This document shows positions 8,002 to 34,257 of a stretch of 34,505 nt of DNA, piece after piece. The notes below the pieces were generated by a model. The model saw only the letters and a program-made list of their open reading frames with translations, made no database searches and had not been told where the DNA came from. Both the position numbers and the translations under genes were made by a program. The first letter of the stretch is position 1. Each line of letters begins with the position of its first letter. The stretch spans positions 1 to 34,505 of the forward strand of contig JAFUKO010000096.1 in the NCBI GenBank assembly GCA_017473555.1, given 5' to 3'. Source of the DNA: Ruminococcus sp. (GTDB lineage Bacteria; Bacillota; Clostridia; Oscillospirales; Acutalibacteraceae).

Positions 8002-10032
8002 CTATGGTTCTATTATATTGAAATATACATCATCTGTAACGCTGAATGAATTCATATTGTCCAGAATTAAGTCAAATTTTGTTGCATCACCATTGATGAC
8101 CGCATTTTCTTTGACAGCATCTTTTTTACCCATATAAATACCTGAAAGCACAAGTTTCGGACACTTCACACTAACCTGAGCATCATCAAACTGAGTATCA
8201 TCGTATATGAGCATTACTCCGTCTGCAATATTAAGCCCAAACTTTTCCTTAGTGTCTGTGACTTCAATATTCACCTTGAAATTTTCTCCCTGAAGCTTTT
8301 CTCTATTCAGCATAATTGCAATATACTGGAGCATTGAACCTGCTGAAATATTATGCTGTGCATCACCTGAAGCTACAGAATCTTTAGAATACTGTGCCTG
8401 ATTGCCAAGTCTTAGTTCAAGAGCGGCACTTAAATATACATTTCTCCAGGTACCTGATTCTGCCTGATAACCGAGCTGTTCGAGTGCATCAGCACATAAG
8501 AGTCTTGCGGCTTTATTTTCAGGGTCTGCAAAAACAAGCACATTTGTAATCTCCGCAACCCACTGGTATTCACCATTGTCATAATCTTGTTTTGCTTTTT
8601 TTAAAACTTCATCAGTATCGCCGAGATACTCAACCCATTTTTTAGCACTTTCACAAATCGGAAGTTTATTGAGATTCACAGGATTTGCATCATACCAACC
8701 CATATACTTCTGATATACAGCTTTTGCGTTATGAGCAACAGTACCGTAATACTGGCGTGTATACCATACCTTGTTAAGGTTGTCCGGTAACTCAATCATA
8801 TTTGCGATTTCATCTGATGTGTAACCACGGTTTATATATGAAAGTGTTTGGTCATTTATATACTTGTAAACGGCAGCAGTGTTTGTGAGATACTCAACAA
8901 TATTCTCATTACCCCAGTGTGGCCAGTTGTGTGACTGGAAGACTACCTGTGCTTTGTCGCCGTACTTTGTGATAGCTTCTGTGATGTACTTTGCCCACAC
9001 CTCACCATCTCTTATCTGTGCACCACGCAAGGTATAAAGATTGTGTAGGGTAGAAGTGCAGTTTTCTGCCATCCAGAGAGCATTAAACTGTGGTAACCAC
9101 GTGTTCATCTCCGATGGAGCTTCTGTACCCGGTGTGAGCTGGAACTCAAGTTTGACACCATCTATTGTCAAAGTTTCGTTAGTTTTAATTTCGTAAGTCG
9201 GTGATATATATGTAGAAAGACCCGCAGACTGTGCCATACCGATGCCCATAGCAAGTGTACCGTTTACGCCCTCTTCAAGAAAACTGCCGTACTGATAATT
9301 TGCTCTACGACGCATCGCAATACCTGCGTACAAATTCTCGCTTACTGCATACTCCTCGAAGCCTTGTGGTACAATTACAGGTATTTTCCCAGAACTTATT
9401 TGCTCTGCTATAGATAGCGAGCTATCAGCTTTTTCTTCTTCACTCATAAGGGCTTTTATACCACCAAAATGGTCAGCATGGCTGTGAGAAATGATGATTG
9501 CTTTTATCGGCTTTTTGCCTATATTTTTATAAACAAGCTCAATTGACGCCTGAGCACACTCGACACTCATCATCGGGTCAAAAACTATGTATCCTGTATC
9601 ACCCTCAATAATGGTCAAGTTTGTCAAATCATACCCACGCACCTGATAAATGCCGTCAGATACTTTAAACAATCCGTAAGCGTGATTGTTCTTTGTGTTT
9701 TCCCACAAACTAGGATTAACTGTAGCAGGGGCTTTTTCATAATCTTCAAGAAAACTATAAGCATCCTGACTCCATACCACTCTGCCGTCTTCTCTGACTA
9801 TCTCTAAACTATCCGGTGCATCAAGCAGACCTTTTGTAGCGTTTTCCCACTCTGACGTATCGGAAAAATCAAGCATTGAATAAACTGCCGAATTAATCTT
9901 AACAGTAGTATCTGTAGCATCTTTTGACTCAGTATTCAGACCGAGTTCATTTACCATATCAGTGTTACCACACGCTGTGACAGACAGTATCATCAAAGCG
10001 GATAATACAATTGACAGTATTCTTTTCAACAT
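8002..10032 (-). CDS. Alkylsulfatase-like metallo-beta-lactamase lipoprotein
   Basis: A 676-residue protein of the alkyl/aryl-sulfatase branch of the metallo-beta-lactamase superfamily (SdsA1/Pisa1/BDS1 type), which hydrolyses sulfate esters of alkyl chains. Residues 1-20 are a signal peptide with lipobox SVTAC (lipid-anchored Cys21). A linker of about 80 residues follows. The MBL core starts near residue 115 and carries HSHADH (183-188), the zinc-binding motif. The later MAENCTSTLHNLYTLRG and VVFQSHNWPHWG segments match conserved metal and substrate regions. The C-terminal third corresponds to the dimerisation and sterol-carrier-like domains of the family. Ribosome site GGGGTGAT precedes the ATG. 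It is monocistronic, with a promoter that carries a dyad. The natural substrate is not known. Confidence 0.88.
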   Translation of the reverse strand: MLKRILSIVLSALMILSVTACGNTDMVNELGLNTESKDATDTTVKINSAVYSMLDFSDTSEWENATKGLLDAPDSLEIVREDGRVVWSQDAYSFLEDYEKAPATVNPSLWENTKNNHAYGLFKVSDGIYQVRGYDLTNLTIIEGDTGYIVFDPMMSVECAQASIELVYKNIGKKPIKAIIISHSHADHFGGIKALMSEEEKADSSLSIAEQISSGKIPVIVPQGFEEYAVSENLYAGIAMRRRANYQYGSFLEEGVNGTLAMGIGMAQSAGLSTYISPTYEIKTNETLTIDGVKLEFQLTPGTEAPSEMNTWLPQFNALWMAENCTSTLHNLYTLRGAQIRDGEVWAKYITEAITKYGDKAQVVFQSHNWPHWGNENIVEYLTNTAAVYKYINDQTLSYINRGYTSDEIANMIELPDNLNKVWYTRQYYGTVAHNAKAVYQKYMGWYDANPVNLNKLPICESAKKWVEYLGDTDEVLKKAKQDYDNGEYQWVAEITNVLVFADPENKAARLLCADALEQLGYQAESGTWRNVYLSAALELRLGNQAQYSKDSVASGDAQHNISAGSMLQYIAIMLNREKLQGENFKVNIEVTDTKEKFGLNIADGVMLIYDDTQFDDAQVSVKCPKLVLSGIYMGKKDAVKENAVINGDATKFDLILDNMNSFSVTDDVYFNIIEP

Positions 10033-11942: not shown

Positions 11943-12806
11943 TTATTTATTGTCCTCAAGTTTATTTGCAAGGTCTTTTAATTCTTCTAAAGAATAAAAG
12001 TCGATAGCTAATGTACCGCCTTTGCCGTCTTTTGACGGAGTAACTACTACCTTGTTACCAAGATATTCAGACAGTGCAAGCTCTACTTCTGAGAAGTAGG
12101 ACGGCTTTTGCTTTACTTTACGGGTACGCTCCTGTGGCTTTTTGAGTAAATCTTTGACCATCTTTTCAACCTGACGTACAGTTAAGTTTTTCTTAACTAT
12201 TTCATCAGCTACATTACTCATCAAAGCCTTGTCCTCAAGTGACAGTAAAGCTCTTGCGTGACCTGAACTTATATCGCCATTCTCCACGAGCTCAATTACG
12301 TCATCAGGAAGTAAAAGCAAACGCATGGTGTTAGCAACAGCAGGACGAGATTTACCGACTGTCTGTGCAACCTGCTCCTGACTCATAGAATATGTATCTA
12401 TGAGAGTTTTATAGCCTTTAGCTTCTTCAATAGGGGACAAGTCCTCTCGCTGAAGATTTTCTATCAAAGCGAGCTCCATTGTTTCATTGTCGCTTAATTC
12501 TCTGATTACAGCAGGTATCTCAGTAAGTCCTGCCATACGAGAAGCACGGTAGCGTCTTTCACCGGCTACAATCTGGTATCCGCCTAAAGGAAGCGGACGA
12601 ACTAAAATAGGCTGTAACACTCCGTGCTGCATGATGCTTTGTGATAACTCAGCGAGTGCCTGTTCGTCAAATTCTTTTCTCGGCTGGTCACGATTAGGTT
12701 CAATATCAGCTATACGCAGAGTAACCGCTTCGTTGCTGTTTTCAGCATCATTTTCAATAAATATGGCACTCAAGCCTTTGCCGAGGCCACCCATTTTTTT
12801 AGCCAT
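11943..12806 (-). CDS. parB: Chromosome partitioning protein ParB (Spo0J)
   Basis: ParB (287 residues) is the CTP-dependent DNA clamp that loads at parS, recruits SMC and separates origins. The N-terminal CTPase domain has GGYQIVAGERRYRASRMAG, with the GERR phosphate motif, and IENLQREDLSPIEEAKGY. A helix-turn-helix parS-binding domain follows (SQEQVAQTVGKSRPAVANTM). A lysine-rich linker leads to the short C-terminal dimerisation domain (about 240-287). The extreme N-terminus MAKKMGGLGKGLSAIF is the typical ParA-contacting GLGKGLSALF segment. The start overlaps the parA stop by 8 bp, so the pair is coupled. Confidence 0.97.
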   Translation of the reverse strand: MAKKMGGLGKGLSAIFIENDAENSNEAVTLRIADIEPNRDQPRKEFDEQALAELSQSIMQHGVLQPILVRPLPLGGYQIVAGERRYRASRMAGLTEIPAVIRELSDNETMELALIENLQREDLSPIEEAKGYKTLIDTYSMSQEQVAQTVGKSRPAVANTMRLLLLPDDVIELVENGDISSGHARALLSLEDKALMSNVADEIVKKNLTVRQVEKMVKDLLKKPQERTRKVKQKPSYFSEVELALSEYLGNKVVVTPSKDGKGGTLAIDFYSLEELKDLANKLEDNK

Positions 12807-13572
12807 ACTGACGCTCCTTCTTTAATATTTCCTGTGTAAGTTCCAGGTAAGCGTGTGTACCTTTACAGGATTTGTCGAAATAAATCACCGGCATACCAAA
12901 GCTCGGAGCTTCTGAAAGCCTGACTCCACGTGGGATAACGGTAGAAAACACCTTTTTAGGGAAGAAACGTTTTACTTCGTTAACTACCTGCTGTGTAAGA
13001 TTGAGTCTGCCGTCATACATCGTCAGCAACACACCCTCAATATCAATATGAGGATTTGTCTGTCGTTTAACTCTACGAACTGTATTCATAAGCTGTGAAA
13101 GACCTTCAAGTGCATAATACTCGCACTGAATAGGTACTAAAATCGTGTCACAGGCTGTAAGAGCGTTTGTAGTAATCAAACCTAACGAAGGTGGACAGTC
13201 GATGATAATGTAATCGAAGTCCGCTTTAATTGAAACAATAGCCTGTTTCATTCTGTAAGTGCGGTTTTCCATATCCGCAATCTCCAGCTCTGCTGCAGCC
13301 AGGTCTATGCCTGATGGCATAATATACAAGTTTTCAAACTGTGTCTGTACAATAATTTCCTGAGCTTTTGTATCGCTCACCAGCAAATCATAGGTCGTGA
13401 ATTTACACGAGCGTTTGTCAATACCGACACCGCTGGTAGCGTTGCCCTGAGGGTCAACATCGATCAAAAGCGTTTTTTTCTTGTTGAAACCGAGGGAAGC
13501 GGCAATATTAACCGCAGAGGTAGTCTTACCGACACCGCCTTTCTGGTTTGCAACAGCAATAACTTTTGCCAA
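12799..13572 (-). CDS. parA: Chromosome partitioning ATPase ParA (Soj)
   Basis: ParA/Soj (257 residues) is a Walker-type ATPase that works with ParB in origin segregation and, in Bacillus, regulates DnaA. The deviant Walker A is KGGVGKTT (residues 11-18), Walker A' is LLIDVDPQGNATSG, and Walker B is YIIIDCPPSLG. The start is taken as TTG at 13572: it gives the standard N-terminus MAKVIAVANQKGG, and GGTGTGAT lies upstream. Longer frames (TTG 13593, GTG 13581) add residues not seen in the family. parB overlaps its end by 8 bp. A possible promoter lies at 13625-13653, and a perfect parS site at 13725-13740. Confidence 0.96.
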   Translation of the reverse strand: MAKVIAVANQKGGVGKTTSAVNIAASLGFNKKKTLLIDVDPQGNATSGVGIDKRSCKFTTYDLLVSDTKAQEIIVQTQFENLYIMPSGIDLAAAELEIADMENRTYRMKQAIVSIKADFDYIIIDCPPSLGLITTNALTACDTILVPIQCEYYALEGLSQLMNTVRRVKRQTNPHIDIEGVLLTMYDGRLNLTQQVVNEVKRFFPKKVFSTVIPRGVRLSEAPSFGMPVIYFDKSCKGTHAYLELTQEILKKERQYG

Positions 13573-13613
13573 AAAAATCACACCAAAATTCAAATTTGTG
13601 CTTTAAACACACA

Positions 13614-13653
13614 TGATAAATGTAATTTTATCACATATCAGCACGAAATTAAA
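13614..13653 (-). promoter_or_regulatory. Possible parAB promoter with dyad
   Basis: On the minus strand TTTAAT (13648-13653), 17 nt and an extended -10 TGATAAAAT ending in TAAAAT (13625-13630). A dyad TGATAAA-N6-TTTATCA (13614-13633) covers the -10. The -35 is weak. Confidence 0.4.
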
Positions 13654-13724
13654 GACTTTTTACATAGATTTATAAAAAAGTTTAAGTTTTAAATGCTTTT
13701 TAAAGTGTATTACGTTTTTATTTC

Positions 13725-13740
13725 TGTTTCACGTGAAACA
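13725..13740. other. parS site (ParB-binding, perfect consensus)
   Basis: TGTTTCACGTGAAACA is the 16-bp palindromic parS consensus with no mismatch. It lies in the intergenic region between parA and the Noc-like gene, close to the origin, and is a loading site for ParB and then SMC. Confidence 0.97.
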
Positions 13741-13792
13741 TTAAGCGCTGAGGTCCGTATTCTGTTTACTTGATTTATCAGACCAATACAAA

Positions 13793-13832
13793 TGCCAAAA
13801 GGCCACACAGAATAACTGTGTGACCTTTGGCA
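13793..13832 (-). terminator. Putative terminator downstream of the noc-like gene
   Basis: A long imperfect hairpin: TGCCAAA/TTTGGCA outer and CACACAG/CTGTGTG inner, around AATAA. On the minus strand TTTT follows the GGCC end of the inner stem. It lies downstream of the noc-like stop and before parS. A second hairpin with a GAAA tetraloop (13867-13882) lies immediately after the stop. Confidence 0.65.
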
Positions 13833-13892
13833 AGGGGTTCAGATAAGGAAATGGGTATGAGTGGATAGATGCTTTCGCATCTAAGGGGAAAG

Positions 13893-14729
13893 CTAAACTA
13901 CCATTTTCGGCTTGTTTGCCGATTTTGGAATTTTTACTGTGTACTCTATGTACTCGTCCGTCTCGTTTTTACAGCTTGTGGCGTTGATACCGGACAGACG
14001 CATTGTATCAACTGCTTTGTTTATAGTATTAACAAAGATGCGAACATCTTTAACAACTATTTTCTTTTCAGGTTTTTTGGTCACTTCTGGGAGTTGGGGA
14101 ACAGTTTTACGTAATAATATCTCAGTAACTAGTGCTTCACTCTGTGTAACATTGAGGTTGTCCGATATTATTCTGCTTAAAGCTTCGCGCCTTAAAGCTT
14201 CGTCATCTATACGAAGAAGGGCTCGAGCGTGTCGCTCAGACAATGATGCACTGACAATCCATTCCTGTTCTTCAAACGTAAGTCGTAGTAATCTTAGTTT
14301 ATTTGCAATCGTCGATTGTTTTTTACCAAGACTGATTGCCGCCTGTTCTTGTGTCAGACCATACTTTCTTATAAGACGAGCAATTCCTCTTGCTTGTTCA
14401 AACATTCCTAAATCTTTGCGCTGGATGTTTTCAATCAAAGCGAAAACTGCAGACTCCTTGTCAGAACACTTGAGTACTACACAAGGTACTCGTGTTATAC
14501 CCGCCATTATAGCAGCACGCAGTCTTCGTTCTCCTGCCACCAGCTCAAACTCCGTCGAATTAATCCGCCTGACCGATAAAGGTTGGAGAATACCATTCTG
14601 TACTATTGACTGTGATAATGACTTGAGTTCACGTTCATCAAAGTTCTTTCTTGGCTGGGTTTTATTTGGTCTTATTGCAATTGTCGGTATGTAGTAAACC
14701 TTATTGTCATCTCTGCTCAAAAAACTCAT
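13893..14729 (-). CDS. noc: ParB-family nucleoid occlusion-like protein (Noc position)
   Basis: A 278-residue ParB paralogue at the Noc locus (rsmG-noc-parA-parB, as in Bacillus). It has the CTPase domain with LVAGERRLRAAIMAG and IENIQRKDLGMFEQARGI, and a helix-turn-helix domain (LTQEQAAISLGKKQSTIANK). The C-terminal part differs from ParB and carries KKIVVKDVRIFVNTINKAVD. Noc binds its own sites, spreads with CTP and keeps division away from the nucleoid by membrane attachment through a short amphipathic N-terminus. Here that N-terminus is only MSFLSRDDN, so membrane targeting is doubtful. The start at 14729 is chosen for its ribosome site (GGGAG) and family alignment. It could instead be a second ParB of another specificity. 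Confidence 0.8.
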   Translation of the reverse strand: MSFLSRDDNKVYYIPTIAIRPNKTQPRKNFDERELKSLSQSIVQNGILQPLSVRRINSTEFELVAGERRLRAAIMAGITRVPCVVLKCSDKESAVFALIENIQRKDLGMFEQARGIARLIRKYGLTQEQAAISLGKKQSTIANKLRLLRLTFEEQEWIVSASLSERHARALLRIDDEALRREALSRIISDNLNVTQSEALVTEILLRKTVPQLPEVTKKPEKKIVVKDVRIFVNTINKAVDTMRLSGINATSCKNETDEYIEYTVKIPKSANKPKMVV

Positions 14730-14760
14730 TTTATTCTCCCTCACAGGTTGTCCCCGCAAG

Positions 14761-14788
14761 ATTATATTATCACGAGGTATACAATAAA
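14761..14788 (-). promoter_or_regulatory. Possible promoter of the noc-like gene
   Basis: On the minus strand TTTATT (14783-14788), 16 nt and TATAAT (14761-14766). The -10 is perfect and the -35 weak. A separate promoter is expected because a terminator follows rsmG. Confidence 0.45.
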
Positions 14789-14836
14789 TTTGTAGAAATA
14801 CCACCGCAAATATAATTTTGTTTTGCTTTTTTAAAT

Positions 14837-14867
14837 AGAAAAACGGCACACTCTGTCGAATGTGCCG
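14837..14867 (-). terminator. Terminator of the mnmE-mnmG-rsmG operon
   Basis: A 10-bp stem (14844-14853 with 14858-14867, one G-U) around a GACA loop, followed on the minus strand by TTTTTCT. It lies 6 nt after the rsmG stop. Confidence 0.92.
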
Positions 14868-14873
14868 CATATT

Positions 14874-15588: not shown

Positions 15589-17481
15589 TTATACCTCATT
15601 GTTTGAGTTGTATGACCTTTTAGCAAGCCAGATTAAAAGCACACTTATATCGGCAGGAGATACGCCACTAATACGTGACGCCTGACCTATATTAGCCGGA
15701 CGTATTTTACTGAGCTTTTCCTGAGCCTCAAGACGCAGACCACTTAAACTCTTGTAATCAGCATCAGCAGGCAGCTTCTTAGCCTCAAGCTTTCTCATCT
15801 GTTCAACCTGTGCAAGCTGTTTTTTAATATAGCCATCATATTTGATAGCAATCTCAACCTGTTCAAGCACACTCTGTGGTATATCAGGGCGTGATACATC
15901 AACGTTCTCTAATGCTTTATAATCTAACTGTGGTCGTTTGAGCAATTCAATCAGACGAATTGAATTAGTAACTTGAGATGTTTCACGTGAAACAAGTATG
16001 TTGTTTAACTCTTCAGTACAAGGAATAACCGTTTCCTTCGCACGTTTTAACTCTTGTTTGATAAGCTCCTGCTTTTTGTTAAAACGTTCCCATCTATCTT
16101 CTGAGATGAGTCCGAGCTCATACCCAAGCGGTGTTAAACGAGTATCAGCATTATCCTGTCTTAAAATAAGACGATACTCACTTCGTGATGTCATCATACG
16201 ATAAGGCTCGTTAGCACCTTTTGTAATAAGATCGTCGATAAGTGTGCCGATATATGAACTAGCTCTGTCTAAGATGAAAGGTTCTTTACCCTGAACTTTC
16301 AAAGCTGCATTGATACCGGCAATCAAACCCTGTGCTGCCGCTTCCTCGTAACCTGAACTACCATTAAACTGTCCTGCACCATATAAACCTTCAAAATCTC
16401 TGAACTCCAGTGTTGCATTCATTGAGGTTGGGTCTATACAATCATATTCGATTGCATAAGCAGGACGCATAATGAGAGCGTTCTCAAGTCCAGGTATCGT
16501 ATGGTAAAACTGAAGCTGAACTTCTTCAGGCAGGGAAGATGACATACCCTGCAAATACATTTCTTCAGTATCAAGACCACATGGCTCTATAAACAGCTGA
16601 TGACGTTCCTTATGCTCAAAACGGACAATCTTATCCTCTAAACTTGGACAATAACGTGGACCTACGCCTTCAATCTTTCCGCCATAAAGCGGAGAACGAT
16701 GAATATTATCTAAGATAATCTTCTTTGTTTCTTCATTTGTGTAACTGATATGGCAGACAACTTTATTATCACCTAAACTCTCTGTGTCATAAGAAAAAGG
16801 TACAGGCGGAGTATCACCATGTTGAACTTCAAGTTTATCAAGAGCAATTGAGCTACGTTTAACACGAGCAGGGGTACCTGTTTTGAATCTGCGTGTAGGA
16901 ATTCCTAGCTTTCTCAGACTATCACCAAGGAAAGTAGCAGGAAAAACTCCGTCAGGACCAGATTCATAAGACACTTCGCCTATAAAAATCTTTCCGCCTA
17001 AATATGTTCCCGTAGCAATAATTACTGTTTTTGCCACAAATTGGGCAAGCATACGGGTTGTCAGAGTCCATGTGCCGTCATCATTTCTTTCAATATCAGT
17101 TATTTCAGCTTGTCTTAAATCAAGATTATCACAAAGTTCAAGCTTGTGCTTCATAACATCCTGATACTTACGTCTGTCAATCTGTGCACGCAGAGAGTGT
17201 ACAGCAGGCCCTTTACCCAAATTGAGCATTCGCATCTGTAAAAAACACTCGTCAGCAGTTTTGCCCATCTCACCACCGAGTGCATCAATCTCACGCACAA
17301 GATGACCTTTAGCTGTGCCACCGATAGACGGATTACAAGGACAGTTTCCTACAGCATCCATATTTATTGTAAAAATAGCAGTTTTACAGCCAAGTCGTGC
17401 AGAAGCTAACGCAGCCTCAATACCTGCGTGTCCTGCACCTATAACTGCAACATCATAATTTCCTGCAAAATATGTACTCAT
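15589..17481 (-). CDS. mnmG: tRNA uridine 5-carboxymethylaminomethyl modification enzyme MnmG (GidA)
   Basis: MnmG (630 residues) is the FAD- and NADH-dependent partner of MnmE. The complex installs the (carboxymethyl)aminomethyl group on U34 of tRNAs that read NNA/NNG codons. The FAD-binding motif [17 protein letters not shown] starts at residue 15, followed by the signature [20 protein letters not shown]. The second signature, [21 protein letters not shown], is complete in the second half (read as [10 protein letters not shown] and GYEEAAAQG). The C-terminal helical domain ends in [16 protein letters not shown], used for tRNA and MnmE contact. GAGG precedes the ATG. It lies 30 nt after mnmE. 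A perfect parS site (15979-15994) is embedded in the coding sequence. Confidence 0.98.
15979..15994. other. parS site inside mnmG
   Basis: A second perfect TGTTTCACGTGAAACA, 2.25 kb from the first. It is translated as VSRETSQ in mnmG (minus strand), showing that the protein tolerates the embedded site. Two origin-proximal parS sites, one inside a gene, is a common arrangement in Firmicutes. Confidence 0.97.
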
Positions 17482-21726: not shown

Positions 21727-22004
21727 CAAAAATTTTTGCTTTTATATAGTATCAATTTTTCTTCAAAAAATACTGCTGAAAATACCCACAATATGTGGTA
21801 TTAACTGCGTTTTTTAACCACAATTTACAGATACAAAAAAATTCTTAAAAATGAGCATATAATTATATGATAAATATTTACTTAAATATAGGAAAATAAT
21901 ATTGATTTTTCAACATAATTTTGATACAATGTTAAACAAATAATGGACAAGTATAGGGTCAAAGGGATTATGACCCACAGAATATGGAAAATGGAGGATA
22001 TAAA
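21727..22004. other. Origin region upstream of dnaA (DnaA-box cluster)
   Basis: An AT-rich gap between the divergent rpmH and dnaA genes. No perfect TTATCCACA is present. Near matches are TTAACCACA (21814-21822, 8/9), ATACCCACA (21782-21790, 7/9) and TGACCCACA (21971-21979, 7/9). A dyad AATACCCACA-ATA-TGTGGTATT lies at 21781-21802. TTTTCAACAT (21907-21916) and, on the minus strand, GTTTAACAT (21929-21937) match a motif that recurs on the other side of dnaA. The gap is likely part of a bipartite oriC. Confidence 0.7.
21902..21930 (+). promoter_or_regulatory. Promoter of dnaA
   Basis: TTGATT (21902-21907), a 17-nt spacer and TACAAT (21925-21930). The spacer contains TTTTCAACAT (21907-21916), a putative DnaA box, and a second variant overlaps the -10 end. 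This is consistent with DnaA repressing its own gene. Confidence 0.68.
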
Positions 22005-23336
22005 ATGGGTTCTTTTGAAGAAGCTTGGCAAGTAATATGTGACTACTTTCAAAACGAGAAAAAAATAACAGACGTTGCTTACAAAACATGGATAAGCCGT
22101 ATAGAACCAAAAAATATTGACTTTGAAAAGGGCGAGATTACACTTCTTGTTCCTAATGATTTTCATAGACAAACACTGATGCGCTGTTACATACCGATGC
22201 TTGAAGACGCCTATTTAGCTGTTTTCGGCACAACATTTACTACAAATTTCATTGTACCTGATGAAATTGAGAAAAAAGAACAGACAAAATTTTTATCAAA
22301 TGAACAGTCAGCAGATGCAGGGTACGAATTTACATTTGATACCTTTATTGTCGGACAGAGTAATAAATTTGCTCACGCTGCGTGTCTTGCAGTTTCACAG
22401 AATCCTGCTGCTGCATATAACCCTCTATTTTTATATGGTAACTCAGGACTTGGTAAAACGCACCTGCTTTATGCTATCGGTAATGATATTAAAAATTCTA
22501 ACCCTGATAAGAAAATAGTTTATGTCAAGGGTGATGATTTTACAAATGAGCTTATTGAATCAATCAGGCTTGCTACAATGTCAGAATTCAGACAAAAGTA
22601 CAGACAGGCAGATGTTCTTTTAGTAGACGACGTTCAGTTTATCGGTGGTAAAGAAAGAACACAGGAAGAGTTCTTCCACACATTTAACACTTTATTTGAA
22701 GCCAATAAACAGATTGTACTTACATCTGACCGTCCACCAAAAGAAATCAAAACTCTTGAAGACAGACTTCGCTCACGTTTTGAATCAGGTCTTCTCGCTG
22801 ATATCCAGCCACCTGATCTTGAAACAAGAATCGCTATTATCAAGCGTAAATCTGAAATCTTAGGTCTGAATCTTGAGGATGAAATCTGTGAAAGTATTGC
22901 ACAGAAACTTAAAACTAATATCCGTCAGCTTGAGGGTGTTGTTAAAAAACTTAAAGCCAGATTCTACTTAACAGGTGAAACAGCATCAATTCAGACAGTA
23001 AGCGAAGCTATCTCAGATATTTTAAATAACGAAGCTCCACCGGAGCTAACGGTTGAAAAAATTATTGATGAGGTTGCACGTACATTTGGTGTAAATGCTG
23101 ATGATATCCGCTCTCAGAAATCCCGTAAAGCTAATATCAACAAACCTCGTCAGATTGCTATCTTCATCGTAAGAGAGCTTACTTCTCTATCAATGGAGGC
23201 TGTCGGTAAAGAATTTGGTGGAAGACACTATTCAACCATTGTTTATACAATTCAGCAGGTTGAAAAGAATATGAAAACCGATATGAATTTAAAAGCAACT
23301 GTAGAAGATATTATCAAAAATATCCGTGACAGGTAA
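22005..23336 (+). CDS. dnaA: Chromosomal replication initiator protein DnaA
   Basis: DnaA (443 residues) binds oriC, forms an ATP-dependent filament and melts the origin. Domain I is at 1-85, a short linker at 86-105, the AAA+ domain at 106-325 with Walker A GNSGLGKT (145-152), Walker B LLVDDV (205-210) and the box VII arginine in LRSRFESGLLADI, and domain IV is C-terminal. The domain IV signature is FGGRHYSTIV, where most bacteria have FGGRDHTTV; the usual Asp-His are His408-Tyr409. The start is ATG 22005, 7 nt after GGAGG; an in-frame ATG at 21984 lacks a ribosome site. It is transcribed alone, with a 288-bp gap before dnaN. Confidence 0.98.
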   Translation: MGSFEEAWQVICDYFQNEKKITDVAYKTWISRIEPKNIDFEKGEITLLVPNDFHRQTLMRCYIPMLEDAYLAVFGTTFTTNFIVPDEIEKKEQTKFLSNEQSADAGYEFTFDTFIVGQSNKFAHAACLAVSQNPAAAYNPLFLYGNSGLGKTHLLYAIGNDIKNSNPDKKIVYVKGDDFTNELIESIRLATMSEFRQKYRQADVLLVDDVQFIGGKERTQEEFFHTFNTLFEANKQIVLTSDRPPKEIKTLEDRLRSRFESGLLADIQPPDLETRIAIIKRKSEILGLNLEDEICESIAQKLKTNIRQLEGVVKKLKARFYLTGETASIQTVSEAISDILNNEAPPELTVEKIIDEVARTFGVNADDIRSQKSRKANINKPRQIAIFIVRELTSLSMEAVGKEFGGRHYSTIVYTIQQVEKNMKTDMNLKATVEDIIKNIRDR

Positions 23337-23624
23337 AATTAAGTAATTATAGCGATGTTTTTAGGTGTAAAAAATTGTCAAAGTTTTACTATATTTTCAT
23401 CAACATTATCTCCACATAAATTAACATGATGTTGAAAACTCAGCGTAAAAAATAAAAAGTATAATTTTTTCCTTATTTTTTATTAAGAATTAAATTAAAA
23501 TTTATCCGATGAAAACTGGACAATTTTTAATTTCAACATATTAACATCCCCTACTATAACTACTAAAATATTATAATTATTACATTTGATTAGATTGATT
23601 TAGTTAAACAAAGGAGAACATAAA
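23337..23624. other. oriC: oriC between dnaA and dnaN (unwinding region)
   Basis: A 288-bp AT-rich gap with no gene. It holds a cluster of TCAACAT-type motifs: TCATCAACAT (23398-23407), TTTTCAACAT on the minus strand (23429-23438), ATTTCAACAT (23530-23539), plus TTAACAT at 23421-23427 and 23541-23547. Only one near-classical box, ATCTCCACA (23408-23416), is seen. The last motif pair abuts CCCC (23548-23551) and then TAC-TAT-AAC-TAC-TAA-AAT (23552-23569), followed by AT-only sequence. This matches the order seen in Bacillus: DnaA boxes, GC clamp, DnaA-trio, AT-rich duplex to be opened. Confidence 0.8.
23541..23569 (+). promoter_or_regulatory. Possible dnaN promoter inside the unwinding element
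   Basis: TTAACA (23541-23546), a 17-nt spacer and TAAAAT (23564-23569). It coincides with the last putative DnaA box and the trio repeat, so DnaA binding at the origin could control dnaN-recF expression. Confidence 0.5.
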
Positions 23625-33382: not shown

Positions 33383-33402
33383 TAAATATTAAGGTGAAAC
33401 AA

Positions 33403-34257
33403 ATGAAAAAAATATTACCAATATTATTAAGTGTAGTTGTAGTTATCAGTATTTTTGCTGGTGTTGCGTTAAATTCTTACGCTACTGATGCAGATCCTGT
33501 TTTATATGTCAGCGGTGACTATACCTACACTATACTGGGTTCAACTGATGCAAAAATCGTAGGTTACAGCGGTGATGATGCTGAAATTGTAATTCCTACA
33601 TCACTCGACGACTATAAAGTAACCTTTATCGATGATTTTGCGTTTATGCAGAATACAGCTTTAAAGAATGTTTCAATTCCGCATACTGTTGTAAGCGTAG
33701 GCGAGTATGCATTTTTAGAAACTTCTCTTGACTACATCACTTTCTTGAATGCAGAGTGCGAGATTTTCGACAGCGAATATACTATCGAAAGCGTAGCTGT
33801 AATCCGTGGATATGATAATTCGACTGCACAGCTTTACGCTGAAAAATATGATAGAGTATTTGAGTCATTGGGCGAGGTTCCTGAAAACCCAACTGAGGCA
33901 CCAACAGTAGCACCAACAGAAGAACCTACAGAGGATCCAACAGAGGATCCAACAGAAGAGCCAACAGAAGAGCCAACAGAGGAACCAACAGAAGAACCTA
34001 CTGAGGAGCCAACAAAGGAACCTACAGAGGAACCTACAGAAGAACCAACACAGAAGCCATTTATTTTGGGTGATGTTGATGGTGACGGCGAGGTTTCAGT
34101 TATGGACGCAACTGCTATCCAGCTTCATATAGCATCACTACAGACTATCCCAGAGGATAAATTACCTGCAGCTGATGCTGACAGAGACGGCGATGTTTCA
34201 GTATTGGATGCAACTCAGATTCAGCTCTTAGTAGCCAGACTTATTGATTCACTTTAA
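33403..34257 (+). CDS. Secreted BspA-like LRR protein with type I dockerin
   Basis: A 284-residue secreted protein. The signal peptide ends near residue 27 (SYA). Residues 44-150 are BspA-like leucine-rich repeats (LRR_5), seen in KIVGYSGDDAEIVIPTSLDD, FIDDFAFMQNTALKNVSIP and VVSVGEYAFLETSLDYITF. A low-complexity Pro/Thr/Glu linker (162-219, repeats of EEPT) follows. The last 60 residues are a dockerin with two good calcium loops, DVDGDGEVSVMDAT and DADRDGDVSVLDAT. The start ATG 33403 is 7 nt after AAGGTG; GTG 33394 lies on the ribosome site. A dockerin implies binding to a cohesin scaffold, whose gene is not here. A strong terminator follows. Confidence 0.88.
   Translation: MKKILPILLSVVVVISIFAGVALNSYATDADPVLYVSGDYTYTILGSTDAKIVGYSGDDAEIVIPTSLDDYKVTFIDDFAFMQNTALKNVSIPHTVVSVGEYAFLETSLDYITFLNAECEIFDSEYTIESVAVIRGYDNSTAQLYAEKYDRVFESLGEVPENPTEAPTVAPTEEPTEDPTEDPTEEPTEEPTEEPTEEPTEEPTKEPTEEPTEEPTQKPFILGDVDGDGEVSVMDATAIQLHIASLQTIPEDKLPAADADRDGDVSVLDATQIQLLVARLIDSL
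33886..34059 (+). repeat. Tandem EEPT-coding repeats (linker)
   Basis: Degenerate 12-bp units of the type GAACCAACAGAG encode the Pro/Thr/Glu linker between the LRR domain and the dockerin. The codon variants differ between units, so the array is old but still expandable. Confidence 0.9.

Follow-up and report, generated by a model that had tools for sequence, protein, structure and literature searches.

DnaA and the box it binds are commonly regarded as almost invariant, and origin-finding programs look for TTATCCACA with mismatches. In the basal unwinding system (BUS) of Bacillus subtilis, which is described in the available parts of PMC8287927, PMC10721633 and PMC6669920, DnaA-box 6/7 is combined with a spacer and DnaA-trios. 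Clostridioides difficile has a bipartite origin around dnaA, with trios and the gene order rpmH-dnaA-dnaN, and in the accessible text of PMC7561715 it keeps all E. coli contact residues and uses TTWTNCACA boxes. Lineage-specific departures are described for the Epsilonproteobacteria, whose boxes carry T at position 5, with a TTCAC core, and for which excerpts of PMC5043019 tentatively point to domain IV residues 435 and 438-439, and for Thermotoga maritima, which has both a changed domain IV and a changed box (AAACCTACCACC). The Thermotoga domain IV and box have been used in B. subtilis chimera tests (PMC6669920, in part), and later work (PMC10316083, in part) redefined the box as a 9-mer. The E. 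coli contact residues used below are those of PMC7561715 and PMC5043019, whose available text gives the residue-to-base assignment in general terms; in the bacteria surveyed by the latter, again as excerpted, the dyad formed by residues 433 and 434 is highly conserved.

The window considered here is a stretch of 34,505 nucleotides from Ruminococcus sp. (Clostridia; Acutalibacteraceae), whose genome is 1.98 Mb long and 93% complete. It carries the chromosome origin: the GC skew changes sign, at its minimum, at about 20.5-24 kb, two parS sites are present, and boxes and DnaA-trios lie in the oriC spacer between dnaA and dnaN, the latter being 3′ of dnaA.

21984..23336, forward strand: dnaA, chromosomal replication initiator (TIGR00362, 483.4 bits against a cut-off of 343.9)
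23337..23624: dnaA-dnaN spacer of 288 bases, taken as the unwinding half of oriC from the skew, the boxes and its place between dnaA and dnaN
13725-13740: parS, perfect match to TGTTTCACGTGAAACA, between parA and the noc-like gene
15979-15994: parS, perfect match to TGTTTCACGTGAAACA, inside gidA

Leftward of dnaA are genes that we take to be rnpA, yidD, yidC, jag, trmE, gidA, gidB, a noc-like gene, parA and parB; several of these names are presumed, whereas the parB and noc names rest on family-model scores. At 11943-14870, parA is flanked by two ParB-family genes, for both of which the Noc model is the best match, with scores below the cut-off. Elsewhere, the window encodes a dockerin-like protein scoring slightly below the dockerin cut-off (2139-2945), another dockerin-like protein with LRR_5 and EPTEEPTEEPT-type repeats (33394-34257) and an alkyl sulfatase-like metallo-hydrolase with a lipoprotein-type start (8002-10032).

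All three Pfam DnaA domains of the dnaA product exceed their cut-offs (Bac_DnaA_C with 79 bits against 31.5), and its domain IV aligns by sequence to PDB 8btg, 1j1v and 3pvp. Translation probably begins with the ATG at 22005 (residue 8), so that the listed start at 21984 would be seven codons too early, since GGAGG lies just 5′ of this ATG and M8 is nearly invariant in 12 aligned proteins. The beginning of the recognition helix is as follows:

23217..23246, forward strand: GGRHYSTIVY, with H, Y, S, V and Y at E. coli positions 433, 434, 435, 438 and 439

The initial annotation had read GGRHYST in domain IV, which is what the codons at 23217-23237 specify. From the base-contact set R399, P423, D433, H434, T435 and H439, this DnaA keeps R399 and departs elsewhere, with E at 423, H at 433, Y at 434, S at 435 and Y at 439 (by alignment, in the numbering of PMC7561715). 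Judged from the aligned sequences, these deviant contact residues are the mark of a DnaA variant and not of a non-DnaA protein, and many relatives deviate too. GGRDHTT, which the same annotation had called near-universal, does not have that standing among near relatives: the first 58 loci, window included, comprise 36 with H433-Y434 (HY), 22 with DHST at 433-436 and none with DHTT. Across 223 loci including outgroups, residues 432-436 display 34 combinations, namely RDHST (88 loci), RDHTT (34), RHYST (31) and 31 others. Of 60 genomes of the genus and 150 of the family, 57 and 144, respectively, gave DnaA-like matches at E <= 0.001, some being only weak AAA+ matches. HY is also found in a second family of the class (f6), and its codon pattern matched 10 of 391 class genomes, with three matches (L147-L149) that are not DnaA; a D-H-S codon pattern restricted to AGY serine, and hence blind to TCN serine, matched a single genome of 291 class-wide. 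As far as these sequences go, the window's group is an exception to the conserved 433-434 dyad, and its recognition helix varies unusually. Rarer dyads in related DnaA proteins, namely NHAT, THTT, THST, KHTT and DRTT (L085, L103, L111, L205, L213, L225), provide a further panel for the recognition code.

The boxes, trios and promoter of the window are:

21902-21930, forward strand: predicted dnaA promoter TTGATT-17-TACAAT, 9 of 12 matches, TG before the -10, DnaA box in its spacer
21907-21916, forward strand: DnaA box TTTTCAACAT, inside the predicted dnaA promoter
23397-23406, forward strand: DnaA box-like TCATCAACAT, first of four box-like words spaced 10-11 bp
23408-23417, forward strand: DnaA box ATCTCCACAT, with C at position 6
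23418-23427, forward strand: weak DnaA box-like AAATTAACAT
23429-23438, reverse strand: DnaA box TTTTCAACAT
23530-23539, forward strand: DnaA box ATTTCAACAT, first of the tandem pair adjoining the trios
23538-23547, forward strand: DnaA box-like ATATTAACAT, second of the tandem pair, the 9-mers sharing 1 bp
23548-23568, forward strand: CCC spacer and DnaA-trios CTA CTA TAA CTA CTA AAA, of the 3′-GAT-5′ type on the opposite strand

The two copies of TTTTCAACAT (21907-21916 on the forward and 23429-23438 on the reverse strand) and ATTTCAACAT at 23530 are where they had been reported, as was TCATCAACAT but for its position, which is one base earlier (23397-23406) than the 23398 given; the reported lack of TTATCCACA around dnaA extends to the whole window, which holds no exact copy. 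The window contains six copies of TTWTCAACA (1.8 expected; six were reached in 1 of 100 shuffles) and none of TTATCCACA, and the proposed genome-wide count gave 26 copies each of TTTTCAACAT and TTATCCACA, of which 3 and 0, respectively, fall in the window. The pattern NTNTYMACAT, itself derived from the data, is found four times in the 288-base spacer (0.15 expected, 0 of 1000 shuffles) and once in the rpmH-dnaA region (0.16 expected, p 0.14), the latter alone being within chance. The box-like words at 23397, 23408, 23418 and 23429 succeed one another every 10-11 bp, and same-strand boxes 8 bp apart, with 9-mers overlapping by one base, recur in the four groups examined.

With its boxes clustered between dnaA and dnaN where the skew has its minimum, the region has the layout of a bacterial oriC with a BUS, and the stretch at 23530-23568 comprises the parts of the latter, i.e., tandem boxes, a short spacer and at least three trios. 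Among the most enriched words in the dnaA-dnaN spacers of relatives (36 HY, 22 DHST) are those of the TTTTCAACA and CTACTACTA/CCCTACTAC types, with the trio word being CTACTACTA in 19 of the 36 HY and CCCTACTAC in 13 of the 22 DHST spacers (about 0 expected). The boxes, the tandem pair with its trios and these enriched words together identify the arrangement as the BUS known from B. subtilis. As there, tandem boxes stand after dnaA beside CCC and CTA-repeats (3′-GAT-5′), and the first trio stands 12 bp from the better box, which compares with a peak at 10-13 bp in the available part of PMC8287927; unlike there, the boxes are of the TTTTCAACAT and not the TTATCCACA type and the two 9-mers of the tandem pair share 1 bp. 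The bipartite origin, trios and rpmH-dnaA-dnaN order are shared with C. difficile, from which the window's DnaA and boxes differ. The system belongs to the DnaA/BUS kind of origin, its differing parts being the recognition dyad and the box matrix. The region would be the unwinding half of an ordinary two-part Firmicutes oriC, in which domain IV of DnaA would bind the row of boxes and DnaA would then, by analogy with B. subtilis, load onto the DnaA-trios adjoining the tandem boxes at 23530-23547. The box in the predicted promoter probably allows self-repression of dnaA, in line with the auto-repression of the B. subtilis dnaA-dnaN operon mentioned in the excerpted PMC6669920. Its placement between -35 and -10 is kept in four relatives (L003-L006) and nearly so in two (L007, L008), and promoter patterns of such a score have 18 matches in the stretch against 9.4 expected.

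De novo matrices depart from TTATCCACA at the origins of several relatives. An expectation-maximisation motif search seeded with TTATCCACA or TTTTCAACAT arrived at TTTTCAACAT in the HY group and at TTTTC[A/C]ACA in the DHST group, and in the rpmH-dnaA regions it yielded no clean box matrix for either. The initial annotation had made its proposal hinge on whether TTTTCAACA is enriched at the origins of relatives that share the helix; the word indeed occurs in 19 of 36 HY spacers (1.2 expected), yet DHST spacers are likewise enriched (13 of 22; 0.65 expected). Usable spacers were available for 203 of the 223 loci. Tree-based comparisons used 265 DnaA proteins, with a tree built without domain IV; this set excludes same-genome duplicates (L060, L142, L143, L145, L146 and four more pairs), proteins shorter than 330 residues and spacers outside 80-1300 bp.

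The clearest matrix difference concerns the base directly 3′ of the 9-mer, which is T (T10) at a share of 0.72 with HY versus 0.30 with DH in GC-matched S435/Y439 spacers, and in 148 of 239 boxes with Y434 versus 348 of 1045 without. Broken down by dyad, T10 is present in 119/190 boxes with HY, 25/31 with NY and 2/3 with DY, as against 260/727 with DH, and the remaining dyads give 26/58 (HH), 6/24 (NH), 3/4 (KH) and 3/6 (TH). It is the Y at 434, and not the loss of D433, that carries T10 in a joint fit (1.01 [0.35, 1.69] and 0.25 [-0.40, 0.88], respectively). The Y434 coefficient of 1.16 [0.69, 1.55] becomes 1.42 [0.84, 1.75] on removal of trio-adjacent boxes, which are therefore not the cause of T10. 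At position -1, T rises slightly with Y434 (0.39 [0.07, 0.71]), and two control words give no clear effect (156 and 94 sites, with wide intervals). On the 265-protein tree, residue Y434 undergoes 16 changes by parsimony, 11 of which are reconstructed as gains; in 10 of these 11, some of which share one sister, T10 is more frequent than in the sister group, and none of 3072 simulated traits was as extreme as the observed T10 statistic. When the 98 domain-IV columns are ranked for T10, columns 434 and 433 come first and second, both raw and corrected, and column 438 is fourth in the corrected ranking.

The T10 prediction, stated beforehand, was borne out in new genomes drawn by codon pattern: in the window's family, T10 is found in 55/77 boxes with Y434 (14 loci) against 294/807 (p 3e-9), or 49/70 with the window's genus left out, and in f6 in 73/155 (63 loci) against 54/238 (p 6e-7). 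In the window's family, the draw picked out 31 genomes from 398: 14 contributed new DnaA loci, 11 had been used before, 5 matches were not DnaA and 1 had no locus. In f6, it picked out 78 from 296; 63 new loci entered the test, one of them lacking any box, L339 was cut by its contig, and the others had been used before or were not retrieved. The added genomes represent new species but come mostly from clades that had been sampled before, and they add no separate gains, so that their counts confirm the clade pattern rather than independent Y434 gains. Among f6 HY proteins, T10 is present in 62/122 boxes with R432 and 11/33 with K432, and residue 432 may modulate the T10 effect there.

Several observations bound this evidence. 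T10 was first picked post hoc, after inspection of the matrices. An open scan of 305 residue states against 33 box features (10,065 pairs, with residue numbers away from the helix being approximate) ranks H434-T10 11th and Y434-T10 143rd, with some higher pairs falling outside the contact-residue list, under a null that is not well calibrated and whose tails are too narrow (sd 1.18, with 30 pairs lying beyond 3.5). One clade of 34 loci supplies 142 of the 239 Y434 boxes of the tree set, and the separate gains of Y434 are few. The first f6 set, which shares five HY loci with the first set and is thus not independent of it, gave T10 in 14/33 versus 54/238 boxes (p 0.019), and its previously unused part gave 6/20 versus 54/238 (p 0.42). 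The f6 HY gains are weak against their near sisters (12/27 and 1/4 versus 5/13), and f6 DHST loci have T10 in 9/21 boxes.

The initial annotation had proposed another link between helix and box, in which D433H/H434Y changes the recognition code such that box position 6 takes A instead of C (A6), and we regard this as very improbable. The raw counts do favor it: A6 is present in 167/239 boxes with Y434 versus 514/1045 without (p 7e-9), which is what the earlier reader would have seen, and strict TTWTCXACA has A 37 and C 12 times in 36 HY spacers. However, the DHST relatives lean to A as well (A 24, C 15 in 21 spacers), and the excess disappears upon AT correction, with a tree-based p of 0.68 for HY and a coefficient of -0.15 [-0.79, 0.50] in a logistic fit over the 203 spacers with a counted box, bootstrapped over 87 protein clusters. 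In spacers with GC <= 0.33, the A6 share is 0.77 for DH-S435-Y439 (32 loci), 0.70 for HY-S435-Y439 (31) and 0.24 for DH-T435-H439 (11). A6 surpasses the sister group in only 5 of the 11 Y434 gains, and columns 433 and 434 rank 88th and 83rd of 98 for A6. Moreover, HY goes with C6 in L102 and in f6, where 21/29 HY boxes carry C6 and A6 is found in 8/29 boxes with HY versus 82/228 with DH, and new f6 HY genomes have A6 in 57/155 boxes versus 86/238 without HY. We accordingly rejected the dyad as the cause of A6. The residue that tracks A6 is 435, with a coefficient of 1.51 [0.88, 2.02] for states other than T and a tree-based p of 0.013 for S435, although C6 persists, by way of exception, in several loci with DHST and in most HYST loci of f6; a link of Y439 to A6 was lost after tree correction (p 0.13). 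For the other box positions compared, T3 follows 435/439 in raw fits, with tree-corrected p values of 0.06 and 0.12, and no association of T5 with the dyad was seen.

Base composition and ancestry alone could also have produced these patterns, if A and C are both tolerated at position 6, AT-rich genomes supply the A, helix changes are neutral or serve other ends and T10 reflects clade history. This accounts for A6 largely, AT-richness being its strongest predictor (coefficient about 3), with the A6 share of S435 loci dropping from 0.84 to 0.19 from low to high GC, and a few clades dominate the T10 counts. It does not account for T10, which is independent of AT (0.18 [-0.26, 0.67]), has no counterpart T rise with Y434 at positions 11, 12 or 13 and points in the same direction in two families; in the window's genome, only 26 of 123 TTTTCAACA sites are followed by T, which argues that T10 at the origin is not a general sequence habit. 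We hold composition and ancestry alone to be an unlikely explanation. Still less probable, in our estimate, is that T10 is a product of tighter 10-11 bp box arrays, i.e., of DnaA filament geometry and not of base reading by the helix. With f6 left out, 10-bp same-strand spacing is indeed commoner with Y434 (28 pairs among 341 boxes versus 13 among 686 with DHST), and T10 occurs in 115/166 clustered versus 19/40 isolated boxes, but such common spacing needs no T, and isolated boxes also have more T10 with Y434 than without (19/40 versus 72/210), albeit with a smaller gap.

We consider it reasonably likely, on the basis of these sequence comparisons, that the locus is an ordinary two-part oriC served by a DnaA with a variable helix, in which core drift and an H434Y-linked T10 are two separable layers. 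In the first layer, the core would have drifted from TTATCCACA to TTTTC[A/C]ACA, with A6 going with AT-rich spacers and residue 435 (less surely with 438, 439 and 423), whether or not the HY dyad is present. In the second, H434Y, usually along with D433H, would go with a preference for T right behind the 9-mer and probably extends the box to ...ACAT, making the effective site here a 10-mer, NTNT[C/T][A/C]ACAT. The altered N-terminal end of the recognition helix would likely make an additional contact with the T:A pair of position 10. The earlier idea of co-evolution between protein and box survives in part, in that the boxes have shifted from TTATCCACA, base-contact residues are altered and helix and box are statistically linked; the base in question is not that at position 6.

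A lineage-specific box shift is also what the Epsilonproteobacteria display, but in the excerpted PMC5043019 they keep D433-H434 and change position 5, whereas in the window's group it is the dyad that has changed, and the base linked to it is that at position 10. Thermotoga, in the available part of PMC7561715, keeps a single arginine of the contact residues, whereas the 9-mer frame and several contacts persist here. In the open-access literature, outside of which most subscription papers lie, we found no report on Y434, on a tenth base linked to 433/434 or on Ruminococcus-type boxes.

These results might mean, though we would put this at slightly short of an even chance, that box recognition in the class evolves in modules, with 434 reading beyond the 9-mer (H434 being neutral and Y434 selecting T10) and residues around 435/438/439 setting positions 3 and 6. 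If so, the class would be a natural panel for reading the DnaA code, with parsimony putting the number of Y434 gains at about 11. Single boxes (TTATCCACA, TTTTCCACA, TTTTCAACA) and the existing B. subtilis domain IV chimera system would allow the T10 prediction to be tested directly, and box searches in such genomes should use NTNTYMACAT-like matrices. The repeated change of D433-H434 in the window's family, known mostly from animal-gut metagenome records, offers a natural experiment on the joint change of an essential initiator and its sites.
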